Source: Bacteroidota bacterium
GTDB lineage: Bacteria; Bacteroidota; Ignavibacteria; UBA10030; UBA8401
Direction of reading: 5' to 3'
Assembly: GCA_021796215.1 (NCBI GenBank)
Contig: JAJYOK010000002.1
Coordinates: 186,001 to 250,000 of the forward strand
DNA: 64,000 nt
A program made the translations under genes and the position numbers. Under the pieces are notes generated by a model, which was not told where the DNA came from, did not search any database, and was given only the letters and a program-made list of their open reading frames with translations. Positions 3,522 through 47,646 of this stretch are shown in pieces. Position 1 is the first letter of the stretch, and the number at the start of each line of letters is the position of its first letter.

Positions 3522-4619
3522 TCACACATTAAATCTGAAATGCACGACGTCTCCGTCTTCAATGATATACTCTCTTCCTTCAATATGAAGTAAGCCGGCA
3601 TCTTTCACAGCTTGTTCACTTCCCAAACGAACAAGGTCATCGTACTTTATGATCTCAGCACGGATAAATCCTTTTTCAAAATCCGTGTGAATAACTCCTG
3701 CGGAAATCGGAGCCGTCGCTCCGCGCTTCACAGTCCACGCATGCACTTCTTTTGGCCCAGCCGTGAAAAAAGTAAGAAGATGAAGCAGATCGTACCCTTC
3801 ATGAATCACTTTCTGTAAACCGGATTCTTTTAATCCAAGCTCTTCTAGAAATACAGCACGTTCTTCTTGCGGAAGTTCAGCAACTTCCGCCTCAACCGCC
3901 GCGCTCACAACAACCACTTTTGCATTTTCCTTCGATGCAATTTCTCTCACTTGCGCAACATACGAGTTTTCTTTCGTGATATCTTTCTCATGAACATTAC
4001 AAACATACATCACCGGTTTACCAGTTAAAAGATGCATATCACGAAACCACAGTGACTCATCGTCGTCGTGTAAAGAGATATACCGGGCAAGCCGCCCGCC
4101 GAATAAATGCTCCTTCACGCGCAAATAAAAATCGAACTCCGCTTTGAATTTCTTGTCGCCGGTCTTTGCACGGCGTTCGGCTTCCGAAATTTTCTTTTCT
4201 ATCGTGTCAAGGTCTTTAAAAATCAATTCCGCTTCAACAACTTCAATATCTCTTTTGGGGTTCACACTGCCGTCGACATGCACAACATTAGCATCATCGA
4301 AGCACCGAACGACATGCGCGATCGCATCAACATCCCGAATGTGTGAAAGAAACTGGTTGCCCAATCCTTCCCCCTTGCTCGCCCCTTTCACCAAACCGGC
4401 AATATCAACAAACTCAATCGTCGTTGGAACAATCTTTGGCGGCTGATACATTTTCACAAGTGCATCTATACGAGAATCCGGAACTGCAACAACGCCGACA
4501 TTCGGATCAATCGTGCAGAAAGGATAGTTTGCAGCTTCTGCACCCGCTGCCGTAATTGCATTAAACAATGTTGACTTCCCGACATTTGGCAAGCCGACTA
4601 TTCCGCAATTAAATCCCAT
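3522..4619 (-). CDS. ychF: Redox-regulated ATPase/GTPase YchF (OLA1 family)
   Basis: A translation-associated P-loop NTPase of 365 residues. The start chosen is the ATG at 4619, giving the canonical [18 protein letters not shown]-terminus; the open frame extends 17 codons further upstream without family support. The G1 motif GLPNVGKST and the G3 region (DIAGL) are present. The G4 site reads NVHE rather than NKxD, the family change that favours ATP over GTP. A central coiled coil (~130-200) and a C-terminal TGS domain follow. Transcribed away from the arginine cluster. Confidence 0.96.
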
Positions 4620-4754
4620 GATATTTTGTCTTCCTCTTCGTGATTCACTGATAAAAGAATTGCGATTCAATATACAAACTTCATGCAGGAATTACCACCA
4701 ACATGTCATAACAATTCATTTATGTGGAAATTTGTAATGTTTTTTAAATAGTTC

Positions 4755-4783
4755 TTGCATTTTTATGCACCCCATTGTATATT
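4755..4783 (+). promoter_or_regulatory. Sigma-70-like promoter of the arg operon
   Basis: TTGCAT (4755-4760), a 17-nt spacer and TATATT (4778-4783) give a good match to a -35/-10 promoter ahead of argC. The start of transcription would fall near 4790, leaving a short leader to the ATG at 4813. Both elements are covered by ARG-box-like palindromes. Confidence 0.55.
4756..4769 (+). promoter_or_regulatory. ARG-box-like operator 1
   Basis: TGCAT-TTTT-ATGCA, a perfect palindrome with an A/T centre. It fits the ArgR operator pattern TGnATwwwwATnCA and covers the -35 element of the argC promoter. Confidence 0.6.
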
Positions 4784-4789
4784 TATACA
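4776..4789 (+). promoter_or_regulatory. ARG-box-like operator 2
   Basis: TGTAT-ATTT-ATACA, centred exactly 20 bp from operator 1, the spacing of tandem ARG boxes bound by one ArgR hexamer. It covers the -10 element. The palindrome extends to 4774-4791. Confidence 0.6.
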
Positions 4790-4812
4790 ATCTTCTTTTT
4801 TGAAGGATTAAT

Positions 4813-5826
4813 ATGAAAGTTTCAATCGTCGGAGCGTCCGGTTATTCAGGAGCAGAGCTTCTTAAACTGCTTTTAGGAAGAGAAAAAGTAGAGATAGAAA
4901 AAATTTTTGCAAATTCTTCGGCAGGGAAAAAAGCCGAGGAGCTATATCCTTTTTTTCGAACAAGAACAAATCTTGTTTACGAACAATACTTACCAGAAAA
5001 AATCCGCACGAGCGATGTTGTGTTCATCGCCCTTCCTTCCGGTGAAGCAATGCACATTGTACCGGAATTGTTGAAGGCAGGAAAACGCGTGATTGATCTC
5101 GGCGGAGATTTTCGCCTGAAAGATATTTCATTATACACTCGTTACTACAAACGCGAGCATACCGCGGCAAACATTCTGCCGCAATCTGTTTATGGCTTGC
5201 CTGAATGGAATAAACCGGCAATCGCTTCCGCACAATTGCTTTCGAACCCCGGATGTTACGCAACAAGCGCCATCCTTGCACTAGCTCCGCTATTGAAAGA
5301 TAATCTGATTGAAGCGAACGGAATAGCGGTGAATTCTCTTTCCGGCGTCTCAGGCGCGGGAAGAAGCGCGGCGACCGATTTATCATTTACTGAAGTTAAC
5401 GAGAGTGTCAAGGCGTACAAAGTAGCAGTTCATCAACATACGCCGGAGATTCGATCGGCTTTGGAAAATATTTCGCGACAAAAAATCTCATTGACATTTG
5501 TTCCCCATTTGATTCCTATAACACGTGGGATCTATACAACAATTTATGCCAGACCGAAAAATACGCTAACAAAAGATAATATCATTGCTTCCTTCTCGAA
5601 ATATTATTCAAACGCGCCTTTTGTTCGTTTTATTGGAGAAGCTGTACCGGAAATTAAACATGTCAACTATACAAACTTTTGTGATGTCGGTTTCAAACTT
5701 GATTCCGACAATAATATGCTCATCATCATGAGCGTTTTAGATAATCTTGTTAAAGGCGCAGCAGGCCAGGCAATTCAAAACATGAATCTCATGTTCGACA
5801 TCAACGAAACGGAAGGACTTGTCTAA
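4813..5826 (+). CDS. argC: N-acetyl-gamma-glutamyl-phosphate reductase
   Basis: Third step of arginine synthesis: reduces N-acetylglutamyl-phosphate to the semialdehyde with NADPH. 337 residues, the usual length. The N-terminal nucleotide-binding motif GASGYSGAELL is at residues 7-17, the catalytic cysteine is in SNPGCYATS (~residue 147), and a conserved His lies in VHQHTPEI. First gene of the operon; the ATG at 4813 follows an AAGGA ribosome site. argJ starts 2 bp after the stop, so translation is probably coupled. Likely repressed by ArgR through the two operators upstream. Confidence 0.97.
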   Translation: MKVSIVGASGYSGAELLKLLLGREKVEIEKIFANSSAGKKAEELYPFFRTRTNLVYEQYLPEKIRTSDVVFIALPSGEAMHIVPELLKAGKRVIDLGGDFRLKDISLYTRYYKREHTAANILPQSVYGLPEWNKPAIASAQLLSNPGCYATSAILALAPLLKDNLIEANGIAVNSLSGVSGAGRSAATDLSFTEVNESVKAYKVAVHQHTPEIRSALENISRQKISLTFVPHLIPITRGIYTTIYARPKNTLTKDNIIASFSKYYSNAPFVRFIGEAVPEIKHVNYTNFCDVGFKLDSDNNMLIIMSVLDNLVKGAAGQAIQNMNLMFDINETEGLV

Positions 5827-5828
5827 TA

Positions 5829-7052
5829 TTGAAAAGGGAACAAGCGAAAATTAAAATAATCGAAGGGGGCGTTTCTGCTCCTTCAGGATTTCTTGCGTCG
5901 GGCATTCATGCGGGAATAAAAAGACGCAAGAGGGATATTTCAATAATTGTTTCCGAAACGCCGGCAATCACAGCCGGAGTTTTCACTCAAAGTCTCACGC
6001 GTGCGGCATGTGTGGATGTAGACAAGCAGCAGCTGAAGCAATCGCACTTTGCTTCCGCAATTCTTATCAACAGCGGGAATGCCAATGCATGCACCGGTGC
6101 CCGCGGCTACAAAAATACGCAGCAGACAATTGAGACAACTTCCATCGCACTTGGCATTCCCAAAAAGTACGTGCTCGTTTCTTCAACCGGTGTTATCGGA
6201 CAATTTCTACCAATGGATAAAATGACACTCGGCATTTTTGAAGCCGTCAAGCAGCTTCGTAAAGATGGAAATAAAGATGCCGCTGAAGGTATTTGCACTA
6301 CAGATACTTTCATTAAGGAAACAGCAGTGGAGTTCGAACTGAACGGAGCAACAACCCGCATCGGCGGCGTTGCAAAAGGTTCCGGAATGATTGCGCCGAA
6401 CATGGCAACGATGCTCGCGTTCATCACGACTGATGCAGCGATCTCCCGGCCGCTGCTTAAAAAAGCGCTGAAAAATGCGACCGATATGTCGTTCAATCGT
6501 ATTACCGTGGATGGTGACACAAGCACGAACGATATGGTGCTGGCGCTCGCCAATGGCAAATCGGGCAATGTTCCATTCAGCGAAGAGACGCCGGCCTACC
6601 AAAAATTTTATGCCGCGTTAGAATATGTTCTCATCACACTTTCGAAAATGATTGTGAAGGACGGCGAAGGAGCGACAAAATTCGTTGAGATTACGGTGAA
6701 AGGAGCACGCACTCACTTTGATGCCGAACGCGCCGCAAGAACAATTGCAAACTCAAATTTAGTGAAGACTGCCATTCACGGAGAAGATGCAAATTGGGGA
6801 AGAATTCTCGCCGCGGTCGGGCGGTCTGGAATAAATTTCAAACCGGAAAAGACTGAAATCTACTTCGATAACGTCCGTATTCTCGGCGGCAACTATGATC
6901 TTTCGTTTTCCGAAGCGCGTGCAAAAAAAGTCCTCGAGAAAAAAGAAATTACTATTACCGTTGATCTTCACGGCGGAAAATCTTCCGCCACCTTTTGGAC
7001 ATGCGATCTTTCGAAAGAATACGTTCACATTAATGCAAGTTACAGGAGTTGA
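5829..7052 (+). CDS. argJ: Bifunctional ornithine/glutamate N-acetyltransferase
   Basis: Moves the acetyl group from N-acetylornithine to glutamate, giving the cyclic arginine pathway; bifunctional forms also use acetyl-CoA. 407 residues starting at TTG 5829. The self-cleavage site is in NMATMLAF: Thr194 becomes the nucleophile of the beta chain. KGSGMIAPN just before it is the conserved alpha-chain end. The C-terminus ends in HINASYRS, close to the usual YVxINxxYRS. No argA is seen, consistent with ArgJ supplying acetylglutamate. Whether it is mono- or bifunctional cannot be decided from sequence alone. Confidence 0.96.
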   Translation: MKREQAKIKIIEGGVSAPSGFLASGIHAGIKRRKRDISIIVSETPAITAGVFTQSLTRAACVDVDKQQLKQSHFASAILINSGNANACTGARGYKNTQQTIETTSIALGIPKKYVLVSSTGVIGQFLPMDKMTLGIFEAVKQLRKDGNKDAAEGICTTDTFIKETAVEFELNGATTRIGGVAKGSGMIAPNMATMLAFITTDAAISRPLLKKALKNATDMSFNRITVDGDTSTNDMVLALANGKSGNVPFSEETPAYQKFYAALEYVLITLSKMIVKDGEGATKFVEITVKGARTHFDAERAARTIANSNLVKTAIHGEDANWGRILAAVGRSGINFKPEKTEIYFDNVRILGGNYDLSFSEARAKKVLEKKEITITVDLHGGKSSATFWTCDLSKEYVHINASYRS

Positions 7053-7075
7053 GAGGAAGACTGTTTAGATCTGAA

Positions 7076-7197
7076 CAATTGCCTCGACCTTTAGGTCGTG
7101 GCAGATCAAACGAACTCAAACTGGCTTTATCCAAATTTAACTAAAGCCGAAAAACTTTTTTAACAATTCGCCCACGAGCTAAAGCTCATGGCAATTG
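7076..7197. repeat. REPIN-like element: two inverted palindromic units
   Basis: Lies between argJ and argB. The ends are CAATTGCC (7076-7083) and GGCAATTG (7190-7197), an exact inverted pair. Next to each end is a palindrome: GCC-T-CGACCT-TT-AGGTCG-T-GGC (7081-7102), and CCACGAGCT-AA-AGCTCATGG (7172-7191). Read on opposite strands the two palindromes are variants of one sequence. This is the architecture of paired extragenic palindromes. No coding sequence inside. Confidence 0.55.
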
Positions 7198-7207
7198 AAC
7201 AATTTAA

Positions 7208-8056
7208 ATGAATCTTTCAAAAGAAGAAGTTCTCATTGAAGCGCTCCCGTACATTCAGAAGTACGAGGGCAAAACATTCGTTATCAAATACGGCGGCGCT
7301 GCTATGACCGAACCGCTTCTGAAAGAAACGTTCGGGAAAGATGTGACGATCCTTCGTAAGATCGGCATCAACATTGTCATCGTGCATGGCGGCGGCAAAG
7401 AAATCACTGAGACAGCAAAAAAACTCGGCATCGAAACACGATTCGTCAACGGTCAGCGTTACACTGACGAACAAATGGTCGAGGTGGTGCAAATGGTGCT
7501 CGCTGGAAAAATCAATAAAGAAATTGTTACACTTATTAACCGCAACAACGGGGATGCGATTGGGTTGAGCGGAGTTGACAACATGCTGCTGCGCGCCGAA
7601 AAACTAATCGAAAACCAAATTGACATCGGCTTTGTCGGGAAAGTAGTGGAAGTCAACACACAACTTATCAATCTTCTTCTCGGAAAAGGAATGATGCCTG
7701 TCATCGCTCCTGTTGGTGTAGACGCAAACGGAATAATCTACAATATCAACGCCGACCTTGCGGCAGGAACAATTGCTTCATCGCTGCAAGCGGAAAAGCT
7801 TGTCTACCTCAGCGACATCGAAGGTATCATCGTCAACAACAGACTTATTTCTTCGCTGACCGAATCTGAAGGCGAGCGGCTCGTTGCCAACGGCTCAATC
7901 TTTGGCGGAATGATTCCAAAAATAAAATCGGCATTTGAAACACTCAACGCCGGCGTCAACAAGGTTCACATTATTGACGGGCGCATCAAGCATTCTCTCC
8001 TTCTCGAAATTTTTACGGATGAGGGAATTGGCACGCAGATGATTCATGAACAATAA
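7208..8056 (+). CDS. argB: Acetylglutamate kinase
   Basis: Second step of arginine synthesis: phosphorylates N-acetylglutamate with ATP. 282 residues. The N-terminus EALPYIQKYEGKTFVIKYGG includes an N-terminal helix, as in arginine-inhibited hexameric enzymes such as that of Thermotoga. HGGGKEI (~59-65) and GLSGVD are substrate and nucleotide sites. The C-terminal stretch HIIDGRIKHSLLLEIFTDEG matches the arginine-binding signature, so feedback inhibition by arginine is likely. A 155-bp gap with a palindromic repeat separates it from argJ. Confidence 0.97.
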   Translation: MNLSKEEVLIEALPYIQKYEGKTFVIKYGGAAMTEPLLKETFGKDVTILRKIGINIVIVHGGGKEITETAKKLGIETRFVNGQRYTDEQMVEVVQMVLAGKINKEIVTLINRNNGDAIGLSGVDNMLLRAEKLIENQIDIGFVGKVVEVNTQLINLLLGKGMMPVIAPVGVDANGIIYNINADLAAGTIASSLQAEKLVYLSDIEGIIVNNRLISSLTESEGERLVANGSIFGGMIPKIKSAFETLNAGVNKVHIIDGRIKHSLLLEIFTDEGIGTQMIHEQ

Positions 8057-8101: not shown

Positions 8102-9010
8102 ATGAAAAAAGATTTCATTTCACTCGATGACATCACGGCAAAAGAATTGATAGAGCTTTTCGAACTTGCAGACGAACTAAAGTCTTCGCCAGCGCATCTG
8201 CCGCTCGCGGGCAAAACTGTTGCAATGATCTTTCAGAAACCATCGCTGCGCACGCGCGTTTCATTCGAAGTCGGCGTTCACCAGCTCGGCGGACATCCTA
8301 TCGTTCTTTCGCAGGAAGGAATCGGTATCGGAATCCGCGAAAAAGCTTCTGACATTGCACAGCTCCTTTCACGGTATAACAATGCAATTGTCGCACGTTT
8401 GTATGATCACAAAATCCTTTTGGAACTTGCACACTATGCGACTGTTCCTGTCATCAATGCACTCACCGACTTGTCTCACCCGTGCCAGATCATGGCGGAT
8501 GTGTATACACTTCGACAGCATAAAGTGCTTCGCGATGGAATGAAAGTTGCATTCATCGGCGACGGCAACAATGTTGTGAACTCGTGGCTCGAAATGTCGA
8601 AGCTGATTCCGATGCATTTCGTTCTCGCGGCGCCAAAAGGATATGAACCCGACGCGGAAATTCTTAAAAGAGCACAGAACACCCGCATCAGCAGTATCGA
8701 AATTACCCGCTCACCGGAAGATGCTGCACGCAATGCAGATGTTCTGTACACCGATGTCTGGGTCAGCATGGGACAGGAAAACGAGCGGGAAAAGCGAACG
8801 AAGGATTTCCACGGATTCCAAATCAACAGCAAACTTCTTTCGCTTGCAAAACCTAACGCCGTTGTCATGCACTGCTTACCGGCGCACCGCGAAGAAGAAA
8901 TTACAGCGGACGTTCTTGAAGGAACCCGTTCCGTCATTCTCGACGAAGCTGAAAATCGTTTACATATTCAAAAAGCGATTTTGGCAAAGCTTATCGGCAA
9001 CATTAAGTGA
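8102..9010 (+). CDS. argF: Ornithine carbamoyltransferase
   Basis: Makes citrulline from ornithine and carbamoyl phosphate. 302 residues. The carbamoyl-phosphate site reads KPSLRTR, the variant of STRT typical of Aquifex-type enzymes. DLSHPCQ binds both substrates, and HCLPAHR carries the ornithine-site cysteine. DVWVSMGQE is the SMG loop of true ornithine enzymes rather than N-acetyl- or N-succinylornithine transcarbamylases, although Bacteroidetes-type variants exist. Followed 7 bp later by argR. Confidence 0.94.
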   Translation: MKKDFISLDDITAKELIELFELADELKSSPAHLPLAGKTVAMIFQKPSLRTRVSFEVGVHQLGGHPIVLSQEGIGIGIREKASDIAQLLSRYNNAIVARLYDHKILLELAHYATVPVINALTDLSHPCQIMADVYTLRQHKVLRDGMKVAFIGDGNNVVNSWLEMSKLIPMHFVLAAPKGYEPDAEILKRAQNTRISSIEITRSPEDAARNADVLYTDVWVSMGQENEREKRTKDFHGFQINSKLLSLAKPNAVVMHCLPAHREEEITADVLEGTRSVILDEAENRLHIQKAILAKLIGNIK

Positions 9011-9017
9011 AACGCGT

Positions 9018-9470
9018 ATGAATAAAACAAACAGGCTTCTCGCCATTAAAGAAATCATCCAATCGAAACCGATTGCGAGCCAGGACGAGCTTGTCATCGA
9101 ATTGCGCAAACGCAGCTTTGACGTTACTCAGGCAACATTATCGCGCGACTTACGTGAACTCGGCGTTGTACGCATTCATGCTGAAGGCGGTGTACGTTAT
9201 GCACTCAGCGTTGAAAGCGAAGAGCGCAAACTAAAATCGCTCGTCGGTTTTGAAATTATGAGCGTTGATTGCAACGAGGCGATGATCGTCATCCGCACGC
9301 TCCCCGGGCGCGCGCCTGGCGTGGCATCGTTCATTGACTCGCTTCACAGTCCAGAAATTCTCGGCACAGTTGCCGGCGACGATACCGTGCTTGTCCTTCC
9401 TTCGTCAACAAAAAAAACGCAGGCAGTCATGGATTCCATCAAAGAATGGATGGCGGCACGAAACACGTGA
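9018..9470 (+). CDS. argR: Arginine repressor
   Basis: DNA-binding regulator, 150 residues, ATG at 9018. The N-terminal winged helix (residues ~1-70) contains TQATLSRDLRELGVVR, the recognition-helix region of the family. The C-terminal hexamerisation domain has GDDTVLVLP, whose two aspartates bind arginine. An open frame continues upstream over argF but is an overlap in another frame. Being inside the operon it regulates, argR probably makes a negative feedback loop through the paired ARG boxes at 4756-4789. Confidence 0.96.
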   Translation: MNKTNRLLAIKEIIQSKPIASQDELVIELRKRSFDVTQATLSRDLRELGVVRIHAEGGVRYALSVESEERKLKSLVGFEIMSVDCNEAMIVIRTLPGRAPGVASFIDSLHSPEILGTVAGDDTVLVLPSSTKKTQAVMDSIKEWMAARNT

Positions 9471-9531: not shown

Positions 9532-10770
9532 ATGAAAAAACAAAAGATCGCAGTTGCATATTCCGGCGGACTCGACACGTCTGTCATTGTGAAATGGCTG
9601 CAGGAAAAATACGATGCTGACGTTATCACTGTCACGGGCAACCTCGGGCAGAAAAAAGAATTAGTCGGCGTAGCAGAAAAAGCATACAAAACCGGCGCGA
9701 AAAAGGTGTACATTCAGGACCTCAGCAAAGAATTTGTTGAAGAGTACATTTTTCCCGCGCTAAAAGCCGGTGCGCTCTACGAACATACCTATCCGATGGC
9801 AACAGCGCTCGGACGTCCGCTGCTTGCAAAAGCCCTCGCGGAAGTTGCAAAGCGTGAGCATTGCACCGCTGTTGCGCATGGATGCACCGGAAAGGGAAAT
9901 GATCAGGTACGATTTGAAGTTTCAATTATGGCGCTCGCGCCGGAGTTGAAAGTGATCGCACCGCTGCGTGAATGGGAATTCAAATCGCGCGAAGAGGAAA
10001 TTGCTTATTGTGAGGACCGCGGAATTCCTGTCGCCGCAACGAAAGCCAGCCCGTATTCTATTGATGAAAATATTTGGGGGACGGCAATCGAATGCGGCGT
10101 TCTCGAAGACCCGATGGTCGAACCGCCGCTCGATGCATATCAACGGACCGTAAATCCCGAAAATGCTCCGAACAAACCGACGTACGTTGCAATTGAATTC
10201 AAAGAAGGCGTGCCGGTCGGATTGAACGGAAAAAAAATGCAAAGCGTTGCGTTGGTCGAAAAATTGAATGCTGTTGCAGGAGCGAATGGCATCGGGCGAT
10301 TGGACTTGGTGGAGAATCGTCTTGTCGGAATTAAATCGCGCGAAGTGTATGAAGCACCCGCGGCAGTAACTCTTCACTTTGCTCACCGCGAATTGGAGCG
10401 GCTGACGCTTGACAAAGAAGTCGCGCATTTCAAAGCGAAAATTGCACACGATTACGCCGATCTTATTTACAACGGCTTATGGTTCTCACCGTTGAAAAAT
10501 GCGCTCGATGGATTCGTGAACGAAACGCAAAAGAACGTTTCCGGCATCGTGAAAGTGCGGATGTACAAAGGCAATCTTACCGTCGGCGGGCGTAATTCAC
10601 TCTATTCATTATACGATAAGAAGCTTGCAACATACACCATCGAAGATCAATATGATCATACGGCTGCTGAAGGCTTCATTAAAATCTATGGATTGCCGTT
10701 GAAAACATTCAATCGCGTGAACAAACCGAAACTGCTGAAAGTAAAAAAAATTCTGAAACGGAAAAAGTAA
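9532..10770 (+). CDS. argG: Argininosuccinate synthase
   Basis: Joins citrulline and aspartate with ATP. 412 residues, the normal length. The ATP pyrophosphatase loop SGGLDTS is at residues 11-17; [15 protein letters not shown] is the second conserved block. The usual acidic GQGEE-like element after strand 2 reads TGNLGQKK. A good AAAGGGA ribosome site precedes the ATG at 9532. A 61-bp A/T-rich gap before the gene includes a weak half-match to an ARG box (9503-9516), so separate regulation is possible. No argH follows; argininosuccinate lyase must be elsewhere. Confidence 0.97.
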
Positions 10771-10785
10771 TTTCGCTATTGAAAA

Positions 10786-10818
10786 ACAAAAAGACCCGGC
10801 ATACTGTCGGGTCTTTTT
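10786..10818 (+). terminator. Intrinsic terminator after argG
   Basis: AAAAAGACCCG (10788-10798), loop GCATACTGT, CGGGTCTTTTT (10808-10818). A-run and T-run on both sides mean it can act in both directions, also ending the leftward gene from 11722. Confidence 0.88.
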
Positions 10819-47474: not shown

Positions 47475-47646
47475 CTTTCGCTCAAACTCCGAGAGAGTAG
47501 AATTAAAAACTCACGGCGTGTTGGAATTTTAATCATTAATTTGTATTTTAATTCAAATTTTACCGCGGCAGAGGAAGTTCTCTTCTCAACGCTAATAAAT
47601 TCATCATTATTATCAACGTAAAACCAGAAAGGACTTACAAATCAGT

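Follow-up and report, generated by a model that had tools for sequence, protein, structure and literature searches.

A predicted tandem ArgR operator before the arginine genes of an Ignavibacteria-type bacterium, and its constant layout among relatives

The window analysed here, a 64,000-nucleotide stretch of a 3.37-Mb genome (the source genome), carries a run of six arginine genes on the plus strand. The run opens with argC (4813-5826), an N-acetyl-gamma-glutamyl-phosphate reductase gene recognized by its semialdehyde dehydrogenase domains (Pfam), and continues with argJ (5829-7052, glutamate N-acetyltransferase), argB (7208-8056, acetylglutamate kinase), argF (8102-9010, carbamoyltransferase), argR (9018-9470, arginine repressor with N-terminal DNA-binding and C-terminal domains) and argG (9532-10770, argininosuccinate synthase). 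The argJ and argG assignments come from Pfam, and for argB and argF Pfam gives the amino acid kinase and Asp/Orn carbamoyltransferase families, with specificity taken from gene order. Upstream, on the minus strand, ychF (3522-4622) is a divergent neighbour that lies outside the predicted regulon, and the intergenic region before argC is 190 bp long with a G+C content of 28%. A plus-strand hairpin read directly after argG (10788-10818; stem AAAAAGACCCG/CGGGTCTTTTT, 9-base loop, T run) is a likely terminator, and is missing from the terminator scan because its loop exceeds that scan's loop limit.

Intergenic gaps within the argC-argG run are at most 61 nt, except for 155 nt between argJ and argB, and argR starts 7 nt after argF. 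The preliminary description of this DNA had placed argR in the same operon as argC. The two indeed belong to one gene run, and argR is likely to be on the same transcript as argC, but a second promoter would fit between argJ and argB, and co-transcription is thus not proven. By eye, the argJ-argB gap (7053-7207) seems to contain two short inverted repeats, for which RNA processing or a second promoter is possible. The gene order argC-J-B-(F)-R-G can be read directly, and it recurs in the family and in most of the named argC loci of relatives that are long enough to show it. In E. coli the arginine genes are distributed over several separate operons, whereas here they form one gene run.

Two 14-bp palindromes stand before argC and are read directly from the DNA: ARG box 1 (TGCATTTTTATGCA, 4756-4769, centre 4762.5) and ARG box 2 (TGTATATTTATACA, 4776-4789, centre 4782.5), neither of which is assigned to a strand. 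Both fit TGNATN4ATNCA with 0 mismatches, and 23 bp lie between the end of box 2 and the argC start at 4813. The distance from centre to centre is exactly 20 bp, leaving 6 bp between the 14-bp palindromes, or 2 bp between the boxes under the 18-bp convention. Direct reading thereby confirms the earlier observation of two palindromes 20 bp apart at argC. The accompanying claim, that this is the geometry used by ArgR, holds in part: the spacing falls within the published range for tandem ARG boxes (18-bp boxes 2-3 bp apart, 20-21 bp between centres) and agrees with the Streptomyces argC and E. coli argR operators, but the norm in E. coli is 21 bp.

Judged by its sequence, the window's site is best fitted by the Streptomyces form among known operators. 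In the portions of the published accounts that we drew on, the S. clavuligerus argCJBDR operator consists of two 18-nt boxes 2 bp apart (PMC3293853) and the Streptomyces ARG box has the consensus AWTGCATRWWYATGCAWT (PMC5291005). The site before our argC shares with Streptomyces argC the 2-bp separation, the box consensus and an arg operon that includes argR (PMC3293853, PMC5291005, as excerpted). Unlike Streptomyces argCJBDR, it lies in a Bacteroidota-type host, its gene run has argF and argG and no argD, and its operator is predicted from sequence.

Excerpts on E. coli describe boxes 3 bp apart, or 2 bp at argR (PMC3293853), with two 18-bp palindromes at artJ, artP and the arginine genes bound by hexameric, arginine-bound ArgR, and with boxes in the arginine biosynthetic operators that partially overlap the -10 and/or -35 elements (PMC6640053). 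Our site resembles these operators in its paired palindromes on promoter elements, which are putative here, and differs from them in its spacing (the E. coli argR operator excepted) and in its consensus, which is TGAAT there and TGCAT here (PMC3293853, PMC5291005, in part). At B. subtilis argC, the part of the account available to us gives two boxes 11 bp apart, against 2 bp here under the 18-bp convention, and an additional one-box operator inside argC (PMC3293853).

AT-rich intergenic DNA such as this can produce palindromes by chance, and the single boxes of the window are only mildly enriched (5 TGNATN4ATNCA sites observed against 1.83 expected, with 5 of 100 shuffles reaching 5). As the genome also holds 92 exact sites, single boxes carry little weight. 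For any one fixed spacing, these 92 sites predict about 0.0025 exact pairs in the whole genome. When the intergenic region was simulated 200,000 times with a first-order Markov model, 2 copies contained an exact pair at a gap anywhere from 4 to 8 bp. Genome-wide pair scans covered centre spacings of 20 and 21 bp. At 20 bp the argC pair was the sole exact match, followed by four sites with 2 mismatches; at 21 bp there was no exact pair, and the best site, with 1 mismatch, lies inside a 381-codon open frame.

Looser scans address whether the same palindromes stand at unrelated genes, a point raised in the preliminary description. At up to 3 mismatches the source genome has 21 near-tandem sites with a 6-bp gap and 32 with a 7-bp gap. 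Twenty of these were examined: 18 are centred in open frames 90 codons or longer, one is the argC site, and one, at hppA, is intergenic and unconserved (see below). A single-box scan with TGYATAWTTATNCA at up to 2 mismatches returned 195 forward and 211 reverse sites; among 23 loci inspected, two are the argC boxes and 21 are centred in a frame that runs for 90 codons or more from stop to stop, which is no proof of a gene, and some of these centres lie at the very edge of the frame.

Conservation was assessed in argC upstream DNA from 13 of the 17 ArgR-bearing family genomes, source genome included. One genome (G016) was left out with its argC cut by a contig end, and three (G008, G009 and G018) with no argC in the examined stretch; in G008, argR-argG is present with no argC within the 12 kb examined. 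All 13 genomes carry the tandem at argC with the same spacing. Invariant columns number 21 of 28 in the boxes and 0 of 57 in the spacer and flanks, and box columns average 1.75 bits against means of 0.55, 0.43 and 0.39 bits for the spacer and flanks, where the alignment anchor TTGCAT..TTAT.CA, present in all 13 genomes, itself fixes some box columns and the base before box 1 is uncounted.

The named argC loci, which represent the best 80 of 344 relatives, extend this comparison. We used 79 of them (L147 has no upstream DNA, and L148 was kept with 89 nt), took the best pair at any gap of 3-10 bp and accepted it at up to 3 mismatches of 16. A tandem pair is found in 70 of these 79 loci, always at gap 6, and since family genomes recur among them (for example, G006 is L111 and G007 is L112) the two sets are not independent. 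Among the 70 box-bearing loci, 37 pairs have 0 mismatches, 26 have 1, 5 have 2 and 2 have 3. This retention at a constant spacing, together with the simulated regions, stands against a chance pair of palindromes in AT-rich DNA, an explanation whose probability we regard as next to negligible.

Nine of the 79 named loci lack a pair, their best candidates having 5-7 mismatches; going by record titles, four are of Chlorobi type (L136, L142, L144 and L146) and five belong to other phyla (L184 and L187-L190). Three of the four Chlorobi-type loci have argR, which indicates that argR and the box are not strictly coupled. As the Chlorobi-type argC has no such operator within 220 nt, any arginine control there would act through another site or motif. 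Downstream of argC, argR is found in 59 of the 70 box-bearing loci, and in 10 of the 11 without it the sequence stops no more than 2.7 kb from argC, which leaves L164 as the one locus with 5 kb and no argR.

A phylum-wide scan of 395 genomes with a stricter pattern matched 26 of them, and a reversed control matched 1. In 23 of the 26 the site for which a locus was retrieved immediately precedes argC, and in G056 a second site does so, bringing the genomes with a site at argC to 24; in the remaining two the site lies before argR (G409) and elsewhere (G152). In G409 (L067:1501-1535; L207:4779) the tandem directly precedes argR-argG and there is no argC match in 14 kb, so that a split operon still keeps the box next to argR. 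The G152 site (L058) is a 2-mismatch pair between the genes for a sodium/hydrogen exchanger and a Cys/Met-metabolism PLP enzyme, and may be due to chance.

The argR product is the only ArgR match in the source genome, and both of its domains score above the Pfam cut-off (Arg_repressor PF01316, E 4.4e-22; Arg_repressor_C PF02863, E 4.1e-24). Its best PDB sequence matches are B. subtilis AhrC and the G. stearothermophilus repressor, and argC, the regulated gene of the AhrC system, is also the predicted target here. Alignment to the 1f9n and 1b4a sequences shows that Ser42-Arg43 and the GDDT motif of the C-terminal domain are retained. According to the excerpted account of the B. subtilis complex, Arg43 touches the palindrome guanines (PMC7248756). 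ArgR is present in 17 of 22 family genomes, the source genome included. Most of the family thus has ArgR, but no match appeared in G010 and G011, two family genomes of about 1.7 Mb that are 95-100% complete.

Palindromes of this AT-rich type suit many regulators, and their abundance as single copies in the genome would agree with binding by a transcription factor other than ArgR. The motif and 2-bp separation nonetheless match the Streptomyces ARG boxes as published in the parts cited above (AWTGCATRWWYATGCAWT; PMC5291005, PMC3293853), and both the frequent presence of argR downstream of argC and the G409 box before argR count against another factor, which we consider very unlikely.

The predicted ArgR boxes also coincide with a possible promoter. 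A putative -35 element, TTGCAT (4755-4760, plus strand), has five of its six bases in common with the left half of box 1, and a putative -10 element, TATATT (4778-4783, plus strand), falls within the left half of box 2, with a 17-bp spacer between them. The earlier statement that the boxes cover these two elements is borne out by the coordinates and the spacer, but the promoter assignment itself stays putative, and a generic promoter scan of the sequence does not have TTGCAT-17-TATATT among its sites because TTGCAT agrees with TTGACA at 3 of 6 positions and the rule needs 4 of 6. The counts of promoter-like and terminator-like sites in the generic scan were no different from those in shuffles.

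The two boxes differ across relatives in a way that bears on promoter use. With kinship ignored, T precedes box 1 in 65 of the 70 box-bearing loci and the equivalent base of box 2 is T in 25, and at base 3 of the left half-site, 64 of the 70 have C in box 1 and 57 have T in box 2. At the mirror position of this base in box 1, all four letters occur across the 70 loci. The most frequent letters at the would-be -10 spell TATA[A/T]T, and its first base is C in 13 of the 70 loci. Such half-site asymmetry is the pattern expected if a -35 TTG and a -10 TATAAT overlie the boxes, and the left half-sites may thus double as promoter elements. If they did, the 20-bp distance between the boxes would be tied to the promoter spacer of 17 bp, and the reverse.

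Placing the transcription start from the putative -10 gives argC a predicted 5' leader of about 23 nt (4790-4812, plus strand), in which GAAGGA is the likely ribosome-binding site. Among relatives, 17 of the 70 box-bearing loci have an in-frame ATG, GTG or TTG at -1 to +3 nt of the box 2 end, and 9 of these 17 have no other in-frame start nearby (L115, L119-L122, L126, L128, L130 and L133). L119 has two adjacent ATGs, the start at the box 2 end in L133 lengthens the protein by some nine residues, and two loci, L130 and L133, have an ATG whose A is also the final base of box 2. Elsewhere among relatives the argC start sits some 10-70 nt from the operator. With the -10 in place, a start codon that abuts or overlaps box 2 implies that argC would be translated from a leaderless mRNA in about 9 of the 70 relatives.

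These start positions also bear on whether the inverted repeats act as RNA structures, in the form of an attenuator or leader hairpin, instead of a protein site. Perfect inverted repeats are able to form hairpins, but the boxes are located at or before the point where transcription is expected to start, the relatives with a start codon at the box 2 end would have no leader to fold, and a 20-bp distance in 70 of 70 box-bearing loci fits the helical phasing of a bound protein. We therefore regard an RNA structure as highly improbable.

We interpret the two boxes as the predicted operator of an argC-J-B-F-R-G operon autoregulated by arginine and ArgR, and assign this reading a probability of about 0.94. 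The identity of ArgR, the gene order, the box geometry, the position before argC and the wide conservation support the ArgR operator proposed in the preliminary description, and arginine-dependent autorepression of the operon is very likely and may be as tight as predicted there. In the proposed mechanism, the operon's own fifth gene, argR, would supply the ArgR hexamer, which would load arginine and bind the two palindromes from the same side of the DNA. These sites are separated by two helical turns, and four of the six DNA-binding domains of the hexamer would be engaged. As the -35 and -10 elements are proposed to lie within the boxes, bound ArgR would then exclude RNA polymerase. When arginine drops, ArgR would be released and the operon, argR included, transcribed.

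A more far-reaching version of this reading can be offered tentatively, and we rate it somewhat short of an even bet. It holds that operator and core promoter are fused and nearly frozen group-wide (TTGCATAATTATNCA-N6-TGTATAATTATGCA in the majority, with the left half-sites as -35 and -10), that several genomes have a leaderless, ArgR-gated argC mRNA in which the operator's last base is the A of the start codon, and that ArgR is a one-operon autoregulator in the source genome.

The regulatory mechanism is a textbook one; what might be fresh is that operator and promoter keep a constant layout and that some variants would be leaderless. Judged by titles and the starts of abstracts, no publication on ArgR in Ignavibacteria was found among the matches listed. 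The site offers a well-supported regulatory prediction for a little-studied, mostly metagenome-derived group, and a clean motif for annotating arginine control in the Ignavibacteria-type group. Additionally, a constant layout with a variable start distance provides a natural series for comparing leadered with leaderless translation of the same operon.

Outside the argC operon, the source genome has no tandem at gaps of 5-8 within 400 nt upstream of argH (C6), carA (C41) or argD (C10), where the best pairs have 7, 5 and 4 mismatches, respectively. Single boxes with 1 mismatch occur at -162 for carA and, once, at -280 for argD. The lack of a tandem at these three genes suggests that ArgR of the source genome may serve mainly the argC operon.

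The intergenic 2-mismatch tandem before hppA, the membrane pyrophosphatase gene (47522-47555), was also weighed as a target of ArgR, but it is not retained in the three relatives compared and we reject it: at gap 6, the 220 nt preceding hppA offer nothing better than 7 mismatches in G004, G005 and G007, and G006 has no hppA match. Some relatives give hints of further targets, the G409 pair before argR-argG among them. In G207 (L205:1505-1538), a 1-mismatch pair at gap 6 precedes a minus-strand proB-like gene with amino acid kinase and PUA domains by 16 nt, which suggests that proline synthesis may be under ArgR control there. In G056 (L069), the gene that follows a 2-mismatch pair at a distance of about 290 nt has a class-II glutamine amidotransferase domain and probably encodes the large subunit of glutamate synthase.
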